A stretch of DNA of 64,000 nt from Henriciella sp. (GTDB lineage Bacteria > Pseudomonadota > Alphaproteobacteria > Caulobacterales > Hyphomonadaceae), in assembly GCA_013213785.1 (NCBI GenBank), contig JABSPZ010000014.1:1-64000 (forward strand), read 5' to 3'. This document shows, one piece after another, positions 6,353 to 31,367 of this stretch (position 1 is its first letter; the number at the start of each line of letters is the position of its first letter). The notes under the pieces are model-generated. The model worked only from the letters and a program-made list of their open reading frames with translations. It did no database searches and was not told the DNA's origin. A program made the translations under genes and the position numbers.

Positions 6353-6427
6353 GAGCTAGAAGATAAGTGTTCCTTTTCGTTTGTGTAGACTGACGCTGCG
6401 TCGCTGAAGGATCAAGCCTGGATTTGA

Positions 6428-6823
6428 TCAATTTGCGGTCACGCGTTCAATTAATTTTCCTACGCGTTTGCGATTGGCTCCCATATCGGAATATCCCACC
6501 CGCGAGCGTGAGTAGATTGCGAAGGTCGCGCGCCCCTCATCCAGCGGGATAATCTCAATATCAAGATCGTCTTTGAAGCGCATCAATCCCGTCGTGGCGA
6601 CCAGTTTGATCCGCAAGGCCTCAGCATCTGTTTCGATTCTTCCAAAACTACGCTCAGACGCGACGATCTCGCTGAATTTTGAGAACAAACCGCGACCCGT
6701 CATGGCGAGTTCAGGCGGCGCGAAATCGGGTTCTGCGGCTAGGCAGTGATTATCCGGTGCCACCAAACATGTGTTTGGTTTTGGAGGGCGCTTGAGGGAT
6801 TTGAAATTGATAAAGTCGGTCAT
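6428..6823 (-). CDS. DUF1499 domain-containing protein
   Basis: 131 aa. The pattern fits DUF1499 (PF07386): an N-terminal NTCLVAPDNHC segment at about 17-27, the central KFSEIVASERS motif, and a C-terminal IYSRSRVGYSDMGANRKRV, where SRSRxGYSDxGxNRxRV is the family signature. There is no signal peptide, although many relatives are membrane or periplasmic proteins. Function is unknown. It lies just upstream of clpS on the same strand, and the phasin gene lies upstream beyond a terminator hairpin (6872-6900), so it probably has its own promoter. No strong ribosome site is seen. Confidence 0.8.
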   Translation of the reverse strand: MTDFINFKSLKRPPKPNTCLVAPDNHCLAAEPDFAPPELAMTGRGLFSKFSEIVASERSFGRIETDAEALRIKLVATTGLMRFKDDLDIEIIPLDEGRATFAIYSRSRVGYSDMGANRKRVGKLIERVTAN

Positions 6824-6871
6824 GGACCAGACTGTGCCCGCACTTTGATCGTTTGTCAGCGCGGGAACAGC

Positions 6872-6900
6872 AAAAAACCAGGCCGCTGGGCCTGGTTTTT
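6872..6900. terminator. Bidirectional rho-independent terminator
   Basis: AAAAACCAGGCC (6873-6884), a GCTG loop, then GGCCTGGTTTTT (6889-6900) make a perfect 12-bp stem flanked by A and T runs on both strands. On the minus strand it follows the phasin stop at 6929 and separates phasin from the DUF1499-clpS-clpA genes. Confidence 0.9.
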
Positions 6901-6928
6901 CTGGGAGTTATTCGGTTGAGAGGAACCG

Positions 6929-7345
6929 CTATGCCACTTTTGCCGATTTCGCGGCCTTTTTAGCTTGCCGGGCGATTGGAGAGAACGCTTCGCGCATTGT
7001 GTCGGCGTAAAGCTCAGACAATTCGCTGAAGCCCTTTAGATTGTTCTCGAAGGCCGACTTCACGAAACGGGTTTGGATCGTCATGGCGTCTTCGATAGAG
7101 CCCGCTTCGGCGAGCTTCTTGCCGGTTTCGACGGACAGGCTCATTTGCTCTTTAAAGTGCGCCATCATGGTTTGGCCTGCGTCCTGCATTCCTTTCACGG
7201 ACGCGCGAGTGCTGGCCGTAGAGGCCTCCATCGCGCCGCGTGCAAGCGCGCTCATTGAATCGCTTTCTGGAAAGAAGCCAGAAAAAGCGTCGGCATTGAA
7301 CGCGTTAAACGGGAAAGAAAAAGGGGAGGCAGTCGCAGACGTCAT
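6929..7345 (-). CDS. Phasin family protein
   Basis: 138 aa, Ala-rich, mostly helical protein of the phasin_2-like family. Phasins coat polyhydroxyalkanoate granules. The N-terminal 30 residues are Phe/Ala-rich (FSFPFNAFNADAFSGFF), followed by an amphipathic helix region (about 30-115) with the family-like segment EQMSLSVETGKKLAEA and the AFENNLKGFSELSELYA helix. The tail is lysine/alanine-rich (KKAAKSAKVA). The start has AGGA nearby. PHA synthase genes are not in the window, so the PHA link is by family. A 15-bp palindrome with a TGC-N3-GCA core sits 65 bases upstream (see 7410) and may be a PhaR-type operator. The phasin/DD-carboxypeptidase/clpS-clpA neighbourhood recurs in alphaproteobacteria. 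Confidence 0.85.
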   Translation of the reverse strand: MTSATASPFSFPFNAFNADAFSGFFPESDSMSALARGAMEASTASTRASVKGMQDAGQTMMAHFKEQMSLSVETGKKLAEAGSIEDAMTIQTRFVKSAFENNLKGFSELSELYADTMREAFSPIARQAKKAAKSAKVA

Positions 7346-7409
7346 GGTCGAATCCTGTAAGTTTTACCTAACGGAATATAGCCGAAATTTTCGCGCACGC
7401 AACAAAAAT

Positions 7410-7424
7410 TTGTGCGGCGCACAA
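7410..7424. promoter_or_regulatory. Palindrome TTGTGCGGCGCACAA, candidate PhaR operator
   Basis: A perfect 7+1+7 palindrome centred on 7417, 65 bases upstream of the phasin start. Its core is TGC-N3-GCA. PhaR repressors of PHA-making alphaproteobacteria bind TGC/GCA-type repeats in front of phasin genes, so position and core fit. The assignment is inference. Confidence 0.5.
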
Positions 7425-7465
7425 TATTATCATCTTGGTAACGTTTGGCGCTCAAATCCTAACAA

Positions 7466-7482
7466 AAATGCCATATGCATTT
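7466..7482. promoter_or_regulatory. Dyad AAATGC-N5-GCATTT upstream of the DD-carboxypeptidase
   Basis: A perfect 6-bp inverted repeat with a 5-base spacer in the divergent phasin/carboxypeptidase intergenic region, 77 bases before the carboxypeptidase ATG. It may be an operator; no regulator can be named. Confidence 0.3.
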
Positions 7483-7558
7483 ACCAGTAGCTAACCTTAT
7501 GAATTGATCCTAGAGTTTCCTCGGGTGGACCGGGGCAACCATTTTTGGAGACCCCCGA

Positions 7559-8533
7559 ATGCGTGTACGAATCCCAGCGCTCTCTGCAAAATCAAGTCTC
7601 GCCGCCGCCGCGATCTTTACGCTTGGATTTACGCCGTCTGCCACTGCCGAAAAATACGCGTCGATCGTCGTAGACTTAGAGCGCGATGAAGTCTTGCACG
7701 CGCGCCACGCCGATGCGCCGCGCTATCCTGCATCGCTTACCAAAGCGATGACCTTATATATGTTGTTTGATGCGATGAAGGCCGGTGAGGTTCGTCTCCA
7801 TGAGGAGCTGCCGGTGTCTCGCGCGGCCGCAAATCAGCCGCCATCTTCGCTTCGCCTGCGAGCAGGATCAACGATCACGACCAAACAAGCCATCAATGCA
7901 TTGATCACGAAGTCGGCGAATGATGTTGCCGTGGTTGTTGCCGAGCGCCTCGGCGGAACCGAAGCGCGCTTCGCAACGCTGATGACGGCTAAAGCGAACG
8001 CGATGGGCATGGAAAGCACGACCTTTAAGAATGCGTCAGGCCTGCCGAACTCTCAGCAACTCTCCACGGCGCGGGATATGGCGGTGCTCGCTGAGCGCCT
8101 GTTGGAAGATCACGCGGATTATTACGGCTACTTCTCCAACAAGAAATTTTCGTGGGGTCGAGCCACTTATAAGAACCACAACCGCCTGATCGGGACGGTT
8201 GAAGGGGTAGATGGCATCAAGACAGGATACACGCGCGCGTCGGGATTCAATCTTATGACAAGTGCAAAGCGCCGGGGTCGACGCGTTGTGGCGATCATGT
8301 TCGGTGGCTCGACGGCTCGCTCTCGCGACCAGCATGTCACCGACCTTGTTGAAGCTGCTTATAAGAGTTTTGAGCCAACCGATTTGGAACCAGAGCTCCG
8401 CTTGCGCATGTCGTTCAGTGAGGTCCAGCCGCCTGTTGATCCAAATGGCGCGGCAATGCCGGTTTTGAATGGTAAAATTTTTGGAACAAACACCGTGGTT
8501 GCCGAAGGCGATGAAGGCTCCAAATCAAACTAA
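7559..8533 (+). CDS. D-alanyl-D-alanine carboxypeptidase (PBP5/DacF family)
   Basis: 324 aa periplasmic peptidase S11 that trims the terminal D-Ala from peptidoglycan pentapeptides. A signal peptide covers about residues 1-30, ending in SATA-EK. All three penicillin-binding motifs are present: Ser59-Leu-Thr-Lys62 (nucleophile), Ser119-Ala-Asn121 and Lys221-Thr-Gly223. The segment after the catalytic domain (about 265-324) is short and lacks a clear amphipathic membrane-anchor helix, so the protein may be soluble. The ATG at 7559 follows TTTGGAG. A serine hydrolase gene follows 30 bases downstream, likely in the same operon. Confidence 0.93.
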   Translation: MRVRIPALSAKSSLAAAAIFTLGFTPSATAEKYASIVVDLERDEVLHARHADAPRYPASLTKAMTLYMLFDAMKAGEVRLHEELPVSRAAANQPPSSLRLRAGSTITTKQAINALITKSANDVAVVVAERLGGTEARFATLMTAKANAMGMESTTFKNASGLPNSQQLSTARDMAVLAERLLEDHADYYGYFSNKKFSWGRATYKNHNRLIGTVEGVDGIKTGYTRASGFNLMTSAKRRGRRVVAIMFGGSTARSRDQHVTDLVEAAYKSFEPTDLEPELRLRMSFSEVQPPVDPNGAAMPVLNGKIFGTNTVVAEGDEGSKSN

Positions 8534-8563: not shown

Positions 8564-9730
8564 GTGTTTCGTCCATTTAGCCTGATCCTTCTTTTCTTTA
8601 GTTTCATTCTGGCCAGTGCTCACGCAGCGCCGGTTGATCATGATGTTTTGGACGCACGGTTGAAGCGTTTGGCGGATGATACCGGCATTGTTGGCCTCGC
8701 TGTGGCTGTCATTGAAGATGGCGAAATCACCTTTGCGGAAGGCTATGGCGTCACCGCCCTGAACGGAGAGGCTGTCACGCCGGACACCGTTTTTCGTTGG
8801 GCCTCTTTGTCGAAGGGGGTCGCGTCCACAGCTGTTGGTAAAATGGCGTCAGAAGGACAGCTCGCCCTAACCGACACAATCTCAAAGTTTAAAACCTCGC
8901 TTCGACTCCCATTGGGCGGTGAGAAGGTTGGTACGCTGGAAGACTTGCTGGCGCACAAGATTGGTATTGTGCCCAATGCCTATGACACGCGCCTCGAAGA
9001 CGGACGTGATCCGGCAGAAATCCGTAAAAGCCTCGGTAGCTTGAAACGCACGTGTCCAGTAGGCGAATGCCACACCTACCAAAACGTTGCCTTCGACGCG
9101 ATCGCAGAAGTGGTGGCTGCTGTACGGGGCGTGTCGTTCGAAGAGGTTGTGCAACTTGAACTGTTTCAACCGCTCGGCATGCGCGATGCCAGCTATGGGT
9201 TGGAGGCACTCACCGGTTCGTTGTCTTGGGCGGAACCTTATCGTAAGCGCCGCGCCGATGCGCGCCCGGTTCGTCGTCCTCTCAAACGCTCTTATTACCG
9301 CGTACCTGCCGCCGGCGGGGTCAATGGTTCTATCTTAGACTTGGCGCGGTTCGCCCAAGCCCAGATGGGGCTCCAGCCCGACGTGCTCGATGATGCGACA
9401 CTAACCGAGCTGCATTCCCCGCGCATATATACACGGCGCGAACAGTCCAGCATGAGCCGTCGTTATGGCGGGCATTTGCGCGATGCGCGTTACGCTCTTG
9501 GGTGGCGTGTCTACAAATACGGTGTGCCAGGATATCGCGTCGTCGGGCATCGCGGCGCGGTTGATGGTTACCGCTCCATGATTCTGTTTGATCCAGAGCG
9601 CCAATCCGGCGTGGTGGCGCTCTGGAATTCAAACTCTCGTATGCCCGTTGGCGTGCAGTTTGAAGTCATGGATATGATCTATGATCTACCAGCGAAAGAC
9701 TGGATCGGTCTCGACCGAGATCAGGGCTAG
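8564..9730 (+). CDS. Class C beta-lactamase-fold serine hydrolase, exported
   Basis: 388 aa. A signal peptide covers about 1-21 (ends SAHA-AP). Class C beta-lactamase/DD-peptidase motifs are Ser81-Leu-Ser-Lys84, Tyr172-Gln-Asn174 and His329-Arg-Gly331 in place of KTG, as in many esterase or peptidase relatives. The start is GTG with TAGGAG about 10 bases upstream. Sitting directly behind a DD-carboxypeptidase suggests a role in cell-wall turnover, but family members also hydrolyse esters and D-amino-acid peptides, so the substrate is open. It converges on the next gene with 10 bases between stops. Confidence 0.88.
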   Translation: MFRPFSLILLFFSFILASAHAAPVDHDVLDARLKRLADDTGIVGLAVAVIEDGEITFAEGYGVTALNGEAVTPDTVFRWASLSKGVASTAVGKMASEGQLALTDTISKFKTSLRLPLGGEKVGTLEDLLAHKIGIVPNAYDTRLEDGRDPAEIRKSLGSLKRTCPVGECHTYQNVAFDAIAEVVAAVRGVSFEEVVQLELFQPLGMRDASYGLEALTGSLSWAEPYRKRRADARPVRRPLKRSYYRVPAAGGVNGSILDLARFAQAQMGLQPDVLDDATLTELHSPRIYTRREQSSMSRRYGGHLRDARYALGWRVYKYGVPGYRVVGHRGAVDGYRSMILFDPERQSGVVALWNSNSRMPVGVQFEVMDMIYDLPAKDWIGLDRDQG

Positions 9731-9740
9731 CGGGCGAGCC

Positions 9741-10169
9741 TTAGAACGGTAGCTCAGCGAGATCTGGCGCTTGCCATGTTCGCCTTGCCTCAACCGAGAA
9801 TAAACGCTCGCGTGACCAATGCTCTAAGAGCCAGTCTGAACGGCCGTAAGGGCTGTCCATCAGGTCGCTCAGCGTATCTTCAAGCGGCGTATCTGGTGCA
9901 GCCTTGCTCAAGAAAGCTCGCGCGACTCGCAGAGACGCGAGCGTGATCGTTTCATGATAGCCCTCAGAATCTGTATTTGCGACACCAGCGGCTTCATTAT
10001 AGGCGCGGATCATGTCCGGCATTTCGGCGAACACATCAACGTCGGCGTCGGCGAGTAAACCGAGCGCCACCGCGAAGTGAGCGCGATGCGTCCATTCGGT
10101 CTTGGGGAGGCTTCTATCTTTGAAGCGTTCCGTGAGGCGATTGATATCGTTGGGGTCAAGTCGGTTCAT
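9741..10169 (-). CDS. Conserved hypothetical protein with EWTHRAH motif
   Basis: 142 aa from the ATG at 10169, which has AAGGA ten bases upstream. A longer reading from 10205 adds 12 unlikely residues. I do not recognise an assigned function. Visible features are an N-terminal helix LTERFKDRSLPKTEWTHRAH with a WTHxAHxAVAL core (about 14-40), reminiscent of a small alphaproteobacterial family of unknown role, a SEGYHETITLA segment in the middle, and WLLEHWSRERLFS near the end. No signal peptide or membrane segment. Its start overlaps the stop of the upstream small ORF by ATGA, which implies translational coupling if that ORF is real. Confidence 0.7.
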   Translation of the reverse strand: MNRLDPNDINRLTERFKDRSLPKTEWTHRAHFAVALGLLADADVDVFAEMPDMIRAYNEAAGVANTDSEGYHETITLASLRVARAFLSKAAPDTPLEDTLSDLMDSPYGRSDWLLEHWSRERLFSVEARRTWQAPDLAELPF

Positions 10170-10357
10170 GGAAGTATTCCTTTGAAGTCTTTGGCGAGCG
10201 TCCAAAAGAAAACCTCGCCGGGGGTGGCGAGGGTTGGCGTTTCGAGAGGTGGATGAGCTGAGCCTAATTCACGTTTCGAAACATGCGCCAACGAGCGCCA
10301 CAAAATGTGTGGAGCTGGTTTTGTTGAGAGGTGATGGTTCTCGAGCGCATGGGGCAT
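10166..10357 (-). CDS. Small hypothetical protein (63 aa), uncertain
   Basis: A 63-residue reading from the ATG at 10357; a TTG at 10411 would extend it to 81 residues but lies inside the T-tract of a terminator hairpin, which argues against it. The stop overlaps the next ATG as ATGA, the same coupling used elsewhere in this window, and this is the main support. The product is basic, with a hydrophobic end (GEVFFWTLAKDFKGILP). I recognise no family. It could be a real leader or partner peptide, or chance. Confidence 0.35.
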   Translation of the reverse strand: MPHALENHHLSTKPAPHILWRSLAHVSKRELGSAHPPLETPTLATPGEVFFWTLAKDFKGILP

Positions 10358-10410
10358 GCGGTACTTTTTCAAAGCGCTGCTTGCAAGGGTTTTGACGTGT
10401 CGGAGGCCCA

Positions 10411-10453
10411 AAAAAATTGCGCCTTGGTCGACTGCTTTAAACGACCAAGGCGC
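10411..10453 (-). terminator. Rho-independent terminator, 12-bp perfect stem
   Basis: The stem arms are 10419-10430 and 10442-10453 with an 11-base loop; on the minus strand it is followed by AATTTTTT. The plus strand has no T-tract, so it acts on minus-strand transcripts. Confidence 0.8.
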
Positions 10454-10504
10454 ACCTATTGATTGCGTGAGTACTAGGGGGCGTTAGTATTTGAAACCAA
10501 TAGG
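10411..10504 (-). ncRNA. Candidate small RNA with C-rich loop and strong terminator
   Basis: Read on the minus strand, CCTATTG (10504-10498) pairs with CAATAGG (10461-10455). This encloses a small hairpin TACTA/TAGTA whose loop is ACGCCCCC. Next comes a perfect 12-bp stem, GCGCCTTGGTCG (10453-10442) with CGACCAAGGCGC (10430-10419), then AATTTTTT. No minus-strand gene lies to the right: the neighbour is a plus-strand AraC gene. A rho-independent terminator with nothing to terminate therefore suggests a short independent transcript. C-rich loops are common in alphaproteobacterial sRNAs. The 5' end and promoter are not defined. The alternative is an attenuator leader for the small genes at 10357-9741. 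Confidence 0.5.
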
Positions 10505-10669
10505 AAGTTAAGAGCTATTCGTATGCACAAGAACCTCAAGAAGCCCTCGTACGAGTTTTGTATATGCGATGGTTTTCGGGAGATCATTACCCTGGCGTCT
10601 CAATTTTCGGGTTTGAGGACTTTCTTCGTAAACGAGCCGTAAATTTATATACTTATCTATTTTATAAGT
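10505..10669. other. AT-rich intergenic region before the AraC-type gene
   Basis: No convincing gene. The stretch 10640-10672 is markedly AT-richer than its surroundings, with a TATTTTATAAG segment that could hold the -10 element of the AraC-type gene. No tRNA, repeat array or riboswitch is recognised. Confidence 0.4.
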
Positions 10670-10720
10670 TTGAGACGTCAGGAGAATTTCATTCCGGTCG
10701 AACGCGCGTACTTAGAATTC

Positions 10721-11764
10721 ATGCAAGATGTTCTTCACCCGATTTCGCAGACCTATGATGTTCCAGAGTACTGGCGCCTCGAACCTGTCCGGCAAGATGT
10801 CTGGGCGGCCATATGGTCACCAGTCCATGATATGCGCATTCAGCATCCTCGATCTTTTGAGCGGATGAACTTTACGCGCGGTGTTGCTCGAGGGGAGTAT
10901 GCCGGCATGCGCTATGCGACGGGCTGGCAACTGAACCAACACTCCAATCACAAACTTTCGGCGCGTTTAGGCGTGGTTTCGATTTCGAGAGTCCTTGCCG
11001 GATATGCGACCATGGATTTCGAACTCAAGAGTTTCGTGCTTCGTCCAGGGCAGATTCTGATCAATGATCATTTGCAAAACTATCGCGGCAGTCAGCATGA
11101 AATGGTTGGCGAAACGATCTATGTTCCGCGTCACTTACTTGGCTTGCCGGAAGGTTCCGCCACGGGTCCGATTCTGATTGAGGAAGGCACACTGTTCGGA
11201 GAGACGCTGAGCCAAGAGATGACTCGCTTCTTCGATTTGCCTGAAAGTTCAGACTTTGATGCGGATACACTTCTTCACGCGGCAAACTCTGTGATTGTTC
11301 ATAACCGTCACCTCGTTTCCGAACGCGCGGGATGGTGGCGTGCCAGAAATGAGATTATTCGCAAATATATTGAATCCAATCTCGGCGACCAAACGCTGCT
11401 GCCCTCAAAGATTTGCAATGTCTTCAATCTCTCGCGAGCAACGCTCTACCGTATGTTCGAAGCCGATGGCGGGGTTCGCCGATACATTCAGGATCGTCGT
11501 TTACACGTTGCGATCTGGGACCTCGCGGATGGCGGTATTAAACGTGGCCGCTTGACTCATCTTTCCGAAAAGTGGGGCTTTTCTTCGAACGCCAATTTTA
11601 ATCGTGCGGTCAAGCAAGCTTTCTCAATGCCGCCAGGATCACTGTTCGCAGAGGGCGCCTATGTTCCGCCGGCGCGGTTTGGGTCGATGCGAGAGGCGTT
11701 CCCGACATTCGATTGGTTCGTCCGACTTTCAGAGACAGCCTCGCTGCGCCGACTTCGGGACTAG
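10721..11764 (+). CDS. AraC-type (HTH_18) transcriptional regulator
   Basis: 347 aa from ATG 10721. The N-terminal about 220 residues resemble an AraC-binding-like sensor domain with a predicted jelly-roll (LKSFVLRPGQILINDHLQNYRG). The C-terminal region (about 225-325) has the two-helix-turn-helix AraC pattern: KICNVFNLSRATLYRMFEAD, then LSEKWGFSSNANFNRAVKQA. The start is uncertain. An AGGAG at 10680-10684 is ideally spaced for the ATT codon at 10691, a TTG lies at 10670, and ATG 10721 has no ribosome site. The regulator points towards the adhesin gene, whose promoter carries an 18-bp dyad, so local control of adhesion is plausible but unproven. Confidence 0.85.
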   Translation: MQDVLHPISQTYDVPEYWRLEPVRQDVWAAIWSPVHDMRIQHPRSFERMNFTRGVARGEYAGMRYATGWQLNQHSNHKLSARLGVVSISRVLAGYATMDFELKSFVLRPGQILINDHLQNYRGSQHEMVGETIYVPRHLLGLPEGSATGPILIEEGTLFGETLSQEMTRFFDLPESSDFDADTLLHAANSVIVHNRHLVSERAGWWRARNEIIRKYIESNLGDQTLLPSKICNVFNLSRATLYRMFEADGGVRRYIQDRRLHVAIWDLADGGIKRGRLTHLSEKWGFSSNANFNRAVKQAFSMPPGSLFAEGAYVPPARFGSMREAFPTFDWFVRLSETASLRRLRD

Positions 11765-11898
11765 TTCGCGACAGCGTAAAGCGGTCCCACACGCTTGGTT
11801 ATTCATTTCGAAATCGAATAGACGCACTCGGACAATAAATTCGAGATGCTCGGATAATGACTAATCCTAGTATCTCAGCTCAAGATTGTATTTAGAGG

Positions 11899-11967: not shown

Positions 11968-14268
11968 ATGAACGCCAATTTGATGTGCAGAACCGCAATT
12001 GGTCTTTTGGTTGCGTCGACCACGATACTGCCAGCCGCCGCTCAATCCTGCCAAACAGAAGACTTGATGGAAGCGCTGACCAGATCAGAACCGCCGCAGA
12101 ACAAATATTGGGTTGCGCCAGACGCGTCCGAAGATCCGTGTTGGGTGATGGAAATCCTCAGCGATCGCTTGCAAGACTTACGAAACCGGCAAGATCCGCA
12201 GAGTGAAGACCGCGCGCCCGTCGATTCAAATATCGGAGACCTGGGCACACCGCCGGTCTATGCTGCAATTTCTCCCCGCTCGGTTGAGATCGGGATCGAT
12301 GCCGTTGCGAGAAGCGGAAGAGCGATCGCAATTGGATCAAACGCCCTGTCAGAAGAGTTCGGCGCGGTTGCGATCGGAGCGAGTGCCATCGCAACACCAA
12401 CCGAATCGCTTGCGATCGGGCTTTCAGCAAACGTTGAAGAGCGCGCGTTGAACGGGATGGCCATTGGTCCAAATGCTCACGTTTTTACTGGAGCCGCGCA
12501 GTCCATAGCGGTCGGCGCCCATAGCTATGTCGGCGCGCCAGGTGGGATTGCGCTCGGATATCTCGCGCGATCTACCGCTCCGGGTAGTATAGCTCTCGGC
12601 ACCCGCTCAGTCGCCGATGAAGCCAATACAGTTTCCCTTGGTCGTGAAGATAACCCTGAAACGGAGCTCGACGAAACACTTCTTCGGCGCCTCACCAACC
12701 TTGCGGCGGGAACTGCAGATACAGACGCGGTCAACTACGCCCAGTTGCAATCCGCGTTGGAGAGCGTCGATTTCAGCTCAGACTATTTTGCTATCAATGC
12801 AACTGGGCCAAACGCGCGGGCTCAAGGGGCAAACTCAATAGCGCTGGGGTCGAACGCCTTTGCCGGTAGCAATGGATCGGTCGCGTTCGGGGCGGGTGCG
12901 AAATCACTCTTCCACAATGCCTACGCGATCGGAGCAAACGCTCAAACCTCTCGTGAGTCACAATTCATGTTTGGCACCAGGCTGTCTAATTATTCGCTTC
13001 CTGGCCTGGCGAACCCCCAATCGCGATTGCTTCAAACCGGTGATTTGCAACTTGTCACGGTCGACGAGTCCGGCACGCTCGCTGGAGATGGTGGGGCGAC
13101 CGTTTCAAATCTACGCTCGAACATCGCAGTGATGGATGAAGGCATTCAAGATCTCCATCAGCAGATATCCGATCATGCGGCGGGTCTTGACCGCGGACTA
13201 CAGGAACGGGGCGCTCTTTCCAGAGGTTTGGCGCTTCTCGAGCATCAGGTGACAGAGCACTCATCAGGTCTGTCGAACTTAAGAGATAGGATTGCCGCAT
13301 TTGCTAATCTTCCTGAAGAAGTTGATGCACTCGGCCGCGACGTGACAGAAAATTCCTCCAGCATTGCGAATATCGAGCAAACCCTCGCAGGAGGGATTGC
13401 GCGTCCGGAAGACATTGACGGTTTGGACGATCGGATCAGCGAGAATAGCTCTAGCATCTCTAGTTTGGAGCAAAGTGTAGCGGCCAATGCGAACCTTCGA
13501 GACGATGTTGCCTCTCTGGGGCGAACAGTTGACGATCACTCAACAAGTATTGCGGGTCTCGAGCGCGGCCTGGCTGAAACGGCTGCCTTTTCCGAGCAAA
13601 CGGCTGAGCAATTGGATGCATTAGACGGCCGTGTTGCTACGAACGGAGCAGGAATCCATCAGAACGCTGGATCGATCCAAGAGAACCGCGTCGCTATAGA
13701 AGGTAATTCCGCCAGCATTGATCGATTGGAAGAGTCTGCGTCGAACGGCGCAGTTCGCTTCGACGCGATCGAAACGTCTGTATCGACCCAGGCGGCTCGA
13801 ATTGACGATATCGATCACTCCATTTCGACACATGAAAACCAGATCGCGGAAAACACCGAGCGTATGGAGACTGTGAAGTCGATAGCGAGTGAGAACCAAG
13901 CGTGGATCGCGCGTAATCAAGCGGGCTTGGCTGAACAGGGAGAGGCGATTTCAATGCTTCAAACTGATTTCGAACAACTCGGGTTGAATGTTTATGGTTT
14001 GGCGCAAACGGTGGCGTATCAGGCTGAGCAAATCGAAACCAATAGAAGGGGCATTGCGATCGCAAACGCCCTTGCTGGGTCGTCTTGGTTGCAGGCCAAT
14101 GAGACCACCGCTCTGACCCTGAATGCGGGTTATTTCGAAGGAAGCTCAGCGCTCGCATTTTCAGGGACGCGTCGGCTGCACAAGCTTTGGTCGGCAAATG
14201 TTGCTGTCGGGACGGATACCGAGCGCGGCGAGATTGGCGCGCGGGCTGGGCTACGTTCGGGGTGGTAG
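11968..14268 (+). CDS. Trimeric autotransporter adhesin (YadA-like)
   Basis: 766 aa surface adhesin. The signal peptide is 1-25 (ends PAAA-QS). Residues about 110-235 form a YadA-type head with repeated AIAIGSNA, AVAIGASA, SLAIGLSA, SIALGTRS units. A HIM neck module (RLTNLAAGTADTDAVNYAQL) follows at about 242-261, then a second short head near 285-325. From about 385 to 690 runs a long coiled-coil stalk with heptad-like ENSSSI/DHSTSI repeats. The last about 70 residues form the YadA anchor: the TNRRGIAIANAL helix and four beta-strands ending in W. It trimerises, the anchor forms the outer-membrane barrel, and head and stalk are exposed. A role in surface or biofilm attachment fits marine stalked bacteria. 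The stop lies 4 bases from the mipZ stop, convergent. Confidence 0.93.
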   Translation: MNANLMCRTAIGLLVASTTILPAAAQSCQTEDLMEALTRSEPPQNKYWVAPDASEDPCWVMEILSDRLQDLRNRQDPQSEDRAPVDSNIGDLGTPPVYAAISPRSVEIGIDAVARSGRAIAIGSNALSEEFGAVAIGASAIATPTESLAIGLSANVEERALNGMAIGPNAHVFTGAAQSIAVGAHSYVGAPGGIALGYLARSTAPGSIALGTRSVADEANTVSLGREDNPETELDETLLRRLTNLAAGTADTDAVNYAQLQSALESVDFSSDYFAINATGPNARAQGANSIALGSNAFAGSNGSVAFGAGAKSLFHNAYAIGANAQTSRESQFMFGTRLSNYSLPGLANPQSRLLQTGDLQLVTVDESGTLAGDGGATVSNLRSNIAVMDEGIQDLHQQISDHAAGLDRGLQERGALSRGLALLEHQVTEHSSGLSNLRDRIAAFANLPEEVDALGRDVTENSSSIANIEQTLAGGIARPEDIDGLDDRISENSSSISSLEQSVAANANLRDDVASLGRTVDDHSTSIAGLERGLAETAAFSEQTAEQLDALDGRVATNGAGIHQNAGSIQENRVAIEGNSASIDRLEESASNGAVRFDAIETSVSTQAARIDDIDHSISTHENQIAENTERMETVKSIASENQAWIARNQAGLAEQGEAISMLQTDFEQLGLNVYGLAQTVAYQAEQIETNRRGIAIANALAGSSWLQANETTALTLNAGYFEGSSALAFSGTRRLHKLWSANVAVGTDTERGEIGARAGLRSGW

Positions 14269-14272
14269 TCGT

Positions 14273-15163
14273 CTAAAAGGCGATTTCGACGCCAGCGAGT
14301 TCCGGGAGCTGCATGATGATAACCAAGTCACGCAGCTCTTGGCGGGCCGCAACGTGGCTCATCGTAAACGACACATTCGATCCGCTTTCAGTCAGGTCGA
14401 GCAGCGTCAGGCCAGCCGGGAAGAGCTCGCGATAAATCACACGCTCAGACAGGCCAGGCGCTAGCCTAAAGCCGATCCGCTTAGAGAGATTTGAAAGCGC
14501 TTCGCCAACTTTTTGCTTGTTGCGGGCTTCCAACGGAGAGACCCGGTTCCGCATCACAATCCAATCAATCGGTTGGCGCGATGTGCGCGCCTTATTCTTG
14601 CGGCACTGCCAAACCATTTCAGAGTAAAAGCTCGGGCGCAATACTTCTAAGGTCTGCGGGTTCACATCCCCCAGAAGATCAAAATCCACGAATGAGTCAT
14701 TCAGCGGCGTGATCAATGAGTCGGCGGCCATGTGGGCAATCCGAGACAAATATGTGTCGCCGCCTGGTGCGTCGACAATCACGATTTCGCAAACCGCTTT
14801 CAAACGCTCAAGAGACGTATAGAACCGTTCGGTTTCCTCTTTCTCAGCAATATCGAGATCCCGCTCTGAGCTTGCATCAACGCGGATAATCTCGGGCATG
14901 GGAAGCTGTGCGCCCGTCGATTGCATCCAGCGCATCCGGTTCTCAAGATATCGTGTCAGCGTACGCTGTCGGACATCAAGATCGATCACGCCGACCTTGC
15001 GGCCCATGCGCATCAAGGCAATCGCCATGTGAATCGAGACAGTTGATTTGCCAGCGCCGCCTTTTTCGTTGCCAACAACGATAACCCGGCACTGTTTCTG
15101 TGCCGGGGTCAAAAGCGTTAGCGTGTCCGCGCCGTCGCGGGGAGGTTGATATCCATCGGCCAT
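14273..15163 (-). CDS. mipZ: MipZ division-plane positioning ATPase
   Basis: 296 aa ParA/MinD-type ATPase that forms bipolar gradients with ParB and blocks FtsZ assembly away from midcell. The deviant Walker A is Lys34-GlyGlyAlaGlyLys-Ser40 in GNEKGGAGKST, with a further switch motif at VDAPGGDTYLSRIAH. The MipZ-specific extra regions (RQRTLTRYLENR, PIDWIVMRNR) are present and there is no C-terminal amphipathic membrane helix as in MinD. The residues fit alphaproteobacterial MipZ rather than Soj/ParA. A hypothetical gene lies 26 bases upstream on the same strand and is likely co-transcribed. Presence of MipZ and absence of MinCD-like genes fits Caulobacter-type division control. Confidence 0.93.
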   Translation of the reverse strand: MADGYQPPRDGADTLTLLTPAQKQCRVIVVGNEKGGAGKSTVSIHMAIALMRMGRKVGVIDLDVRQRTLTRYLENRMRWMQSTGAQLPMPEIIRVDASSERDLDIAEKEETERFYTSLERLKAVCEIVIVDAPGGDTYLSRIAHMAADSLITPLNDSFVDFDLLGDVNPQTLEVLRPSFYSEMVWQCRKNKARTSRQPIDWIVMRNRVSPLEARNKQKVGEALSNLSKRIGFRLAPGLSERVIYRELFPAGLTLLDLTESGSNVSFTMSHVAARQELRDLVIIMQLPELAGVEIAF

Positions 15164-30593: not shown

Positions 30594-31367
30594 TTATTTG
30601 CCGAAGCCGTAAACCAGCGATACGCGGCTGATTGTGTCGGTGGCTTCGAAGCCGTCGACTGGATCGGTGTCGTGGCGAACTTCAAACGAAACGCGTGCCG
30701 ACAACGTATTTGTGAGAGATGCGGTGATCGCAGCCATGTTGCCGATCTGAGTAGACGTCTCGGCGTAAACGACGGTCGTGTCGTTCGTGAAAGCAACATT
30801 GTCGTTGAACTGGTGGGCGAAGTTCGATGCGGCGGTCGCACCAAAAGACTCTTCTGTTGTGGCTTCGCTGAGAACTGTTGGAGGCACAGTGCTGGCATCA
30901 AGGACCGCTTCGATCTCATCGATTTTGAGACCTGGACCACCGCGAACCGTCCACTGTGTAGCGTCGCCATTCAGGACTTCATAGCCGAGACCGCCACCGA
31001 TAAAGGCGCGAGACTCAAAGCCTGAAAACTCATCACGCTCATAAGTCAGCTGACCGAACCCGAAGAGGCGGTCATTGATTTGGCGATCAAGATTGGTGCC
31101 AAGGAAGATCCGGTTTTTGGTCTCGTCGCCATCTGTTTCGCCATAATCAGCGCTGGCTTGAAGGCCGACTTTCCAGAGGTTCATGGTCCGTGTGGCGTCG
31201 ACTGCGAGACCGAGATCGGTGGTTTCAGTGTTGCCGGTGGTTACACCAGCGCTGAGCGAGCCTTCGCCGCTCCAGCCGATCTCGTCCGCGTCTTGCGCGT
31301 GGACTGGGAGGGCGATTGTGACTGCGCCTGCAAAGGCTGCAAATTTAAGAAACTGGGAGAATGTCAT
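30594..31367 (-). CDS. DUF481 family outer-membrane protein
   Basis: 257 aa. A signal peptide of about 1-25 (ends PVHAQ) precedes a beta-rich body with alternating short strands, beginning GEGSLSAGVTTGNTETTDLG, typical of DUF481 (PF04338), an outer-membrane barrel-like family. It ends in SLVYGFGK rather than an aromatic residue. AGGAG precedes the start. Function unknown. Confidence 0.85.
   Translation of the reverse strand: MTFSQFLKFAAFAGAVTIALPVHAQDADEIGWSGEGSLSAGVTTGNTETTDLGLAVDATRTMNLWKVGLQASADYGETDGDETKNRIFLGTNLDRQINDRLFGFGQLTYERDEFSGFESRAFIGGGLGYEVLNGDATQWTVRGGPGLKIDEIEAVLDASTVPPTVLSEATTEESFGATAASNFAHQFNDNVAFTNDTTVVYAETSTQIGNMAAITASLTNTLSARVSFEVRHDTDPVDGFEATDTISRVSLVYGFGK

Follow-up and report, generated by a model that had tools for sequence, protein, structure and literature searches.

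Several small RNA genes form divergent pairs with the gene of a regulator, as in SgrR-SgrS, VqmA-VqmR, OxyR-OxyS, and GcvA-GcvB. The CcsR RNAs of Rhodobacter exhibit C-containing hairpin loops and occur as tandem homologous copies with RpoH-type promoters. SgrR is described as an activator of SgrS (PMC4098024), and VqmA as an activator of VqmR (PMC13251380). For GsrN of the Caulobacteraceae, the exposed C-rich loop is reported to be the most conserved part of the RNA and to pair with G-rich mRNA leaders; GsrN needs a sigma-T (EcfG) promoter, and its homologues are usually found near general stress genes, C. crescentus itself being an exception to the location near ecfG/nepR/phyR (PMC5869019).

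The locus described here lies in a stretch of 64,000 nucleotides from Henriciella sp., hereafter the window. It resembles the divergent pairs in that a transcription-factor gene adjoins the gene of a putative small RNA that it probably activates. In contrast to these pairs, the locus combines a FeaR-like regulator of the AraC family with the gene of a trimeric autotransporter adhesin, and no Rfam family matches the RNA. With GsrN, it shares a conserved C-rich loop in an alphaproteobacterial small RNA, and with the CcsR RNAs a C-containing hairpin loop. However, simple EcfG, RpoN, and RpoH promoter patterns are absent upstream of the RNA in all eight genomes in which it was found. The neighbours are AraC and adhesin genes rather than ecfG, nepR, or phyR, and there is one copy per genome, unlike the tandem CcsR copies. 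The comparison with GsrN proposed in an earlier reading of the sequence alone (hereafter the sequence-only reading) is valid for the C-rich loop alone; the sigma-EcfG promoter was sought and found in none of the eight.

Structure and conservation of the element

The element is on the minus strand and comprises two serial hairpins, a stem with a large C-rich loop followed by a G+C-rich stem and seven T. The predicted RNA extends from about 10509 to 10410 (~100 nt), its 5' end being placed near 10509 and its 3' end at the T tract. The outer hairpin (10455..10504, arms 10504-10495 and 10464-10455) is defined by fold and covariation, and exhibits the C-rich loop ACTAACGCCCCCTAGTACTCACG (10466..10488), delimited in the eight-genome alignment, which is the presumed pairing site. 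Its stem is not 7 bp long, as counted previously: folding the window's copy alone gives 10 bp, and the RNAalifold consensus of eight relatives gives 12. Similarly, the stem of the intrinsic terminator (10410..10454) has 13 bp and not 12, with arms TGCGCCTTGGTCG (10454-10442) and CGACCAAGGCGCA (10430-10418) and a tail of seven T (10416-10410). As the simple terminator scan allows loops of 3-8 nt, this terminator, whose loop is 11 nt, was not listed by it. Another hairpin resembling a terminator, with a T-rich tail, is present on the minus strand at 10213-10232, where it separates the small RNA from the 9741-10169 gene.

Apart from these stem lengths, the parts named in the sequence-only reading are all in their place on the minus strand, including the loop ACGCCCCC between TACTA and TAGTA. 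As it claimed, the terminator has no gene ahead of it on this strand, and the AraC gene (about 10721-11764) has the opposite orientation. Its statement that no known class is matched agrees with the Rfam (release 15) covariance models, none of which matches window 9500-11500 up to E = 10.

The structure is conserved in the manner of an RNA. The folding energy is -37.2 kcal/mol, compared with -21.57 (sd 3.26) in 200 shuffles, none of which is as low (z -4.79). In the alignment of eight sequences, which are few and related, 96.4% of the cells are paired, whereas slid structures pair only 24-45%, and nine cells are changed on both sides, compared with 4.4 in shuffles. None of 500 shuffles reaches the paired percentage, the both-side-changed cells, or the covariation score; the number of covarying pairs alone (four) is reached by 191 of them. 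With regard to the fold proposed earlier, covariation in relatives is observed in the outer stem, where three pairs are changed on both sides, and the terminator exhibits one such pair. The inner TACTA/TAGTA hairpin, stressed in the sequence-only reading, is not supported in this way, four of its five pairs never varying and the fifth, outermost pair being broken in four of the eight genomes. Across the eight genomes, 22 of the 23 positions of the loop itself, ACUAACG(U/C)CCCCUAGUACUCACG, never change, the remaining position being C or T. As the inner hairpin lacks covariation and has lost its outermost pair in half of the genomes, we take the invariance of the loop to reflect contact with an outside partner, which would most simply be mRNAs.

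In the more distant copies, homology extends no further than the element and roughly 26 nt ahead of it. Just upstream of and at the presumed 5' end, a conserved block on the minus strand (10505..10530) includes GAATAGCTCTTAACTT, which is identical in all eight genomes. This block is probably the core promoter plus the first transcribed bases. A simple consensus scan of 9600-11700 found no sigma-70 promoter.

Two explanations without a regulatory RNA were considered. The element could yield no transcript, being a conserved DNA element or a mere terminator for convergent genes, and the terminator does contribute much of the folding-energy signal. Nevertheless, the T tract is on one strand only, the outer stem covaries, the window has no nearby convergent gene to terminate, and a terminator would leave the invariant single-stranded loop unexplained, which makes this explanation improbable. 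Alternatively, the transcript could code for a very short peptide, as the window contains an eight-codon frame that starts with TTG and stops at the TAG of the loop, and a short frame ending in TNVP/TNAP-stop is readable by eye in the aligned copies. This frame has no Shine-Dalgarno sequence, however, its start codon becomes CTG in G002, and the conservation ignores codon positions and runs past the stop; we consider such a peptide highly unlikely.

Genomic neighbourhood and distribution

The gene on the other side of the divergent spacer, AraC1 (10721..11764, plus strand), encodes an AraC-family regulator with an HTH_18 domain; its start was picked by comparison with relatives. Its best NCBIfam model is FeaR, at a score below the model cut-off. 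It is followed by a gene for a YadA-like trimeric autotransporter adhesin (11968..14268, plus strand) exhibiting YadA_head and YadA_stalk, with YadA_anchor just under cut-off. AraC1 is adjacent to and divergent from the small RNA in all eight genomes, and the adhesin gene follows AraC1 in six of them. In G014, the contig stops inside or near AraC1, and in G024 (locus L070), AraC1 runs in frame into the C-terminal anchor of the adhesin as the result of a deletion that took away the end of its DNA-binding domain. In the adhesin leader of L068 and L069, a hairpin of the type CAATACT...AGTATTG, identified by eye, encloses the presumed ribosome-binding site, which suggests translational control.

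On the other side of the RNA, the genes are variable among the seven genomes with sequence there, short unmatched open reading frames being disregarded. A gene of the 9741-10169 family is downstream in three, on the same strand as the RNA in the window and in G007 and on the opposite strand in G002, and a second, convergent AraC-family gene is downstream in four (G014, G010, G015, and G024). The sequence-only reading had named as an alternative that the element is the leader of the 10357-9741 genes. A leader or attenuator would fit the window and G007, where the next homologous downstream gene is on the same strand. However, this gene is on the opposite strand in the other five (G002, G014, G010, G015, and G024), where the RNA and its terminator are still conserved; this rules out a conserved leader role, and we give the leader explanation very little credit. 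With such variable downstream genes, the RNA can be regarded neither as a conserved leader nor as the 3' end of its neighbours. The element stands free of them, with its own terminator and without coding sequence. The independent small RNA put forward in the sequence-only reading is thus supported by the confinement of conservation to the element, the covarying stems, the fixed divergent position, and the variable downstream genes. On these comparative grounds, the element is very likely a free-standing small RNA gene. The AraC box, the association with the adhesin, and the distribution described below had escaped the sequence-only reading.

A DNA search of 61 genomes yielded another seven strong matches, every one in the genus (E 1.6e-61 to 5.8e-26). 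Built from the eight element sequences, a covariance model detected one true copy, at 112-123 bits, in each of 8 of the 29 genus genomes; under stricter filters, the remaining 76 of the 105 family genomes yielded no true copy. The window's own genome contains no second copy, its other matches being short, and BLAST against plasmids and phages gave no match at E 0.01. Among named genomes, the exact loop pattern is present in seven records, namely four Henriciella, two 'Hyphomonadaceae bacterium', and one 'Hyphomonas'. Several weaker model matches were set aside. Those on the opposite strand in all eight genomes (22-34 bits) overlap or adjoin the terminator, whose palindrome they reflect, and one in G008 (E 0.49) was set aside likewise; the 21.4-bit matches in six family genomes correspond to one identical, unrelated terminator without the loop. 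None of the literature matches listed (the best 12 of 1,873 in one set) is a publication on this RNA. It looks like an unnamed, new small RNA family of a known kind, a regulatory small RNA in one group of Henriciella-like bacteria.

Eight of the 21 genus genomes lacking the RNA were examined at the corresponding site. In seven, the ParA-like ATPase gene (window 14273-15163) is followed, directly or across a single gene of about 200 aa, by a homologue of window 7559-8533; adhesin, AraC gene, and RNA are all missing from the interval. The eighth, G028, exhibits at this site a 162-aa adhesin remnant and one copy of the operator-like box described below, without AraC1 or the RNA. Given these empty sites and this remnant, the adhesin-AraC-RNA unit behaves as a cassette that would have been gained in one clade and partly lost in G028; absence elsewhere by loss is possible as an alternative to a single-clade gain. 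Relatives of the AraC protein at E 1e-10 number four to six in each RNA-bearing genome, two in each of G028 and G027, one in each of G011, G023, and G025, and none in 16 genomes. At L132 (about 6426-7718, contig C50 of the window's own genome, G000), a broken-looking AraC relative is next to an intact one, and boxes are present ahead of and inside the broken stretch.

Operator-like boxes and AraC-family control

Two inverted copies of TTGAGACGnnnnGnnAATGA are present in the divergent spacer in all eight genomes. In the window, TTGAGACGCCAGGGTAATG (10585..10603, minus strand) faces the small RNA, and TTGAGACGTCAGGAGAATT (10670..10688, plus strand) faces AraC1, about 42 bp upstream of its start. 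The distance from the RNA-facing box to the loop core is 116 nt in seven genomes and 129 in G014. Just ahead of AraC1 in L068, L070, and L071, a perfect hairpin of the type GAATTTCAG...TGAAATTC, identified by eye, overlaps the box. This hairpin, which several relatives have in their AraC1 leader, may act as an attenuator or as a further operator.

A matrix built from the 16 spacer sites was used to scan related promoters. Five of the six adhesin promoters exhibit a box at a score of 9 or more, G002 having none at the scan threshold. Tandem pairs 22 bp apart were found by scan in three (G010, G015, and G007), and the window and G026 exhibit a single box with a weaker partner recognised by eye. 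The two partly degenerate boxes of the window (11818..11861, plus strand) are 22 bp apart, the second found by scan and the first by eye. The second AraC gene of the locus has a box in three of four cases, with none found by scan in G014. Eighteen unlinked AraC relatives were selected solely for the similarity of their proteins. Five of them have a box scoring at least 16 upstream and in the orientation of the gene, and 13 do not; elsewhere in these loci (55,282 bp), a single site reaches that score. A larger AraC set (box in 11 of 27) was set aside for selection bias, since it had been chosen partly for its boxes. Allowing up to one mismatch, the box pattern has 8-14 matches in each of the eight RNA-bearing genomes, 9 in G028, and 1-5 in the other 20, compared with 0-3 for the reversed control pattern in every genome. 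An isolated box-like site (score 17.6) was observed in the window at 31343-31366 on the plus strand.

A tandem 20-bp site spaced about two helical turns suits binding by AraC-family proteins. It is this spacing and the recurrence of the box that place the small RNA in an AraC-family regulon, and we consider AraC-family control of the RNA likely. A real and independent small RNA could nevertheless be transcribed from a constitutive or stress promoter, with the boxes serving the AraC and adhesin genes only. The RNA and the boxes persist in G024 despite its damaged AraC1, the box is some way upstream of the presumed RNA start, and 16 bases at the presumed promoter are invariant in their own right. 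However, G024 retains an intact second AraC gene, the RNA-facing box points to the RNA at the fixed 116-nt loop distance in seven of the eight genomes, and AraC alone would need just one box in the spacer. We regard a promoter outside AraC control as rather unlikely.

Candidate targets and proposed function

Targets were sought in the eight RNA-bearing genomes using four 12-base patterns covering the loop, with G-U pairs allowed. Of 113 matches, 32 are the RNA gene itself, and 80 of the other 81 were examined. Beyond the RNA gene, the match numbers show no excess over the reversed-pattern control apart from chance-sized differences. One start-region match is conserved, in a gene of 83 aa without a Pfam family above cut-off, where 15 contiguous pairs could form next to the start codon in G024, G010, and G015. 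These three are close relatives, so the match counts as one event, and we estimate that such a 15-pair match would occur by chance about once in ten genomes. The same gene offers 11 pairs in G028, which lacks the RNA, the same number in G007, and 6-7 in the other four RNA-bearing genomes. Its ribosome-binding site is the best target candidate, albeit an unconvincing one. The loop does not pair with the start regions of the adhesin genes better than with shuffled controls in any of six cases (p 0.46-0.99), and mostly not with those of AraC1 in eight (p 0.04-0.97). It is still plausible that the C-rich loop pairs with ribosome-binding sites.

Based on these observations, we propose that the element encodes a stand-alone, trans-acting RNA, divergent from the AraC gene and belonging to the regulon of that regulator family, whose loop would pair with mRNAs; taken as a whole, this reading appears moderately probable. 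The AraC-type protein would bind the RNA-facing box, some 76-94 bp ahead of the putative RNA start, and activate, rather than repress, the RNA. By binding the inverted box ahead of its own gene, it would regulate itself, and it would also occupy the tandem boxes in front of the YadA-like adhesin gene. The small RNA, ended by its own terminator, would display its 23-nt C-rich loop on the conserved stem. Through this loop, it may pair with the G-rich translation-initiation regions of mRNAs and thereby change their translation while the adhesin programme is on.

A broader interpretation, which we offer only tentatively, is that of a mobile-like surface-attachment cassette combining an AraC regulator, an adhesin, and a dedicated RNA under one operator code, such that switching on the adhesin would rewire the translation of core genes. 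In such a cassette, the operator code would be shared by AraC paralogues genome-wide, and the 83-aa gene would be the candidate core target.

The regulatory RNAs of Hyphomonadaceae appear to be little studied. If confirmed, this RNA would tie an AraC-family regulator and a trimeric autotransporter adhesin to post-transcriptional control in surface-colonising bacteria, and the common box would give a ready prediction of the regulon for a whole family of AraC paralogues.
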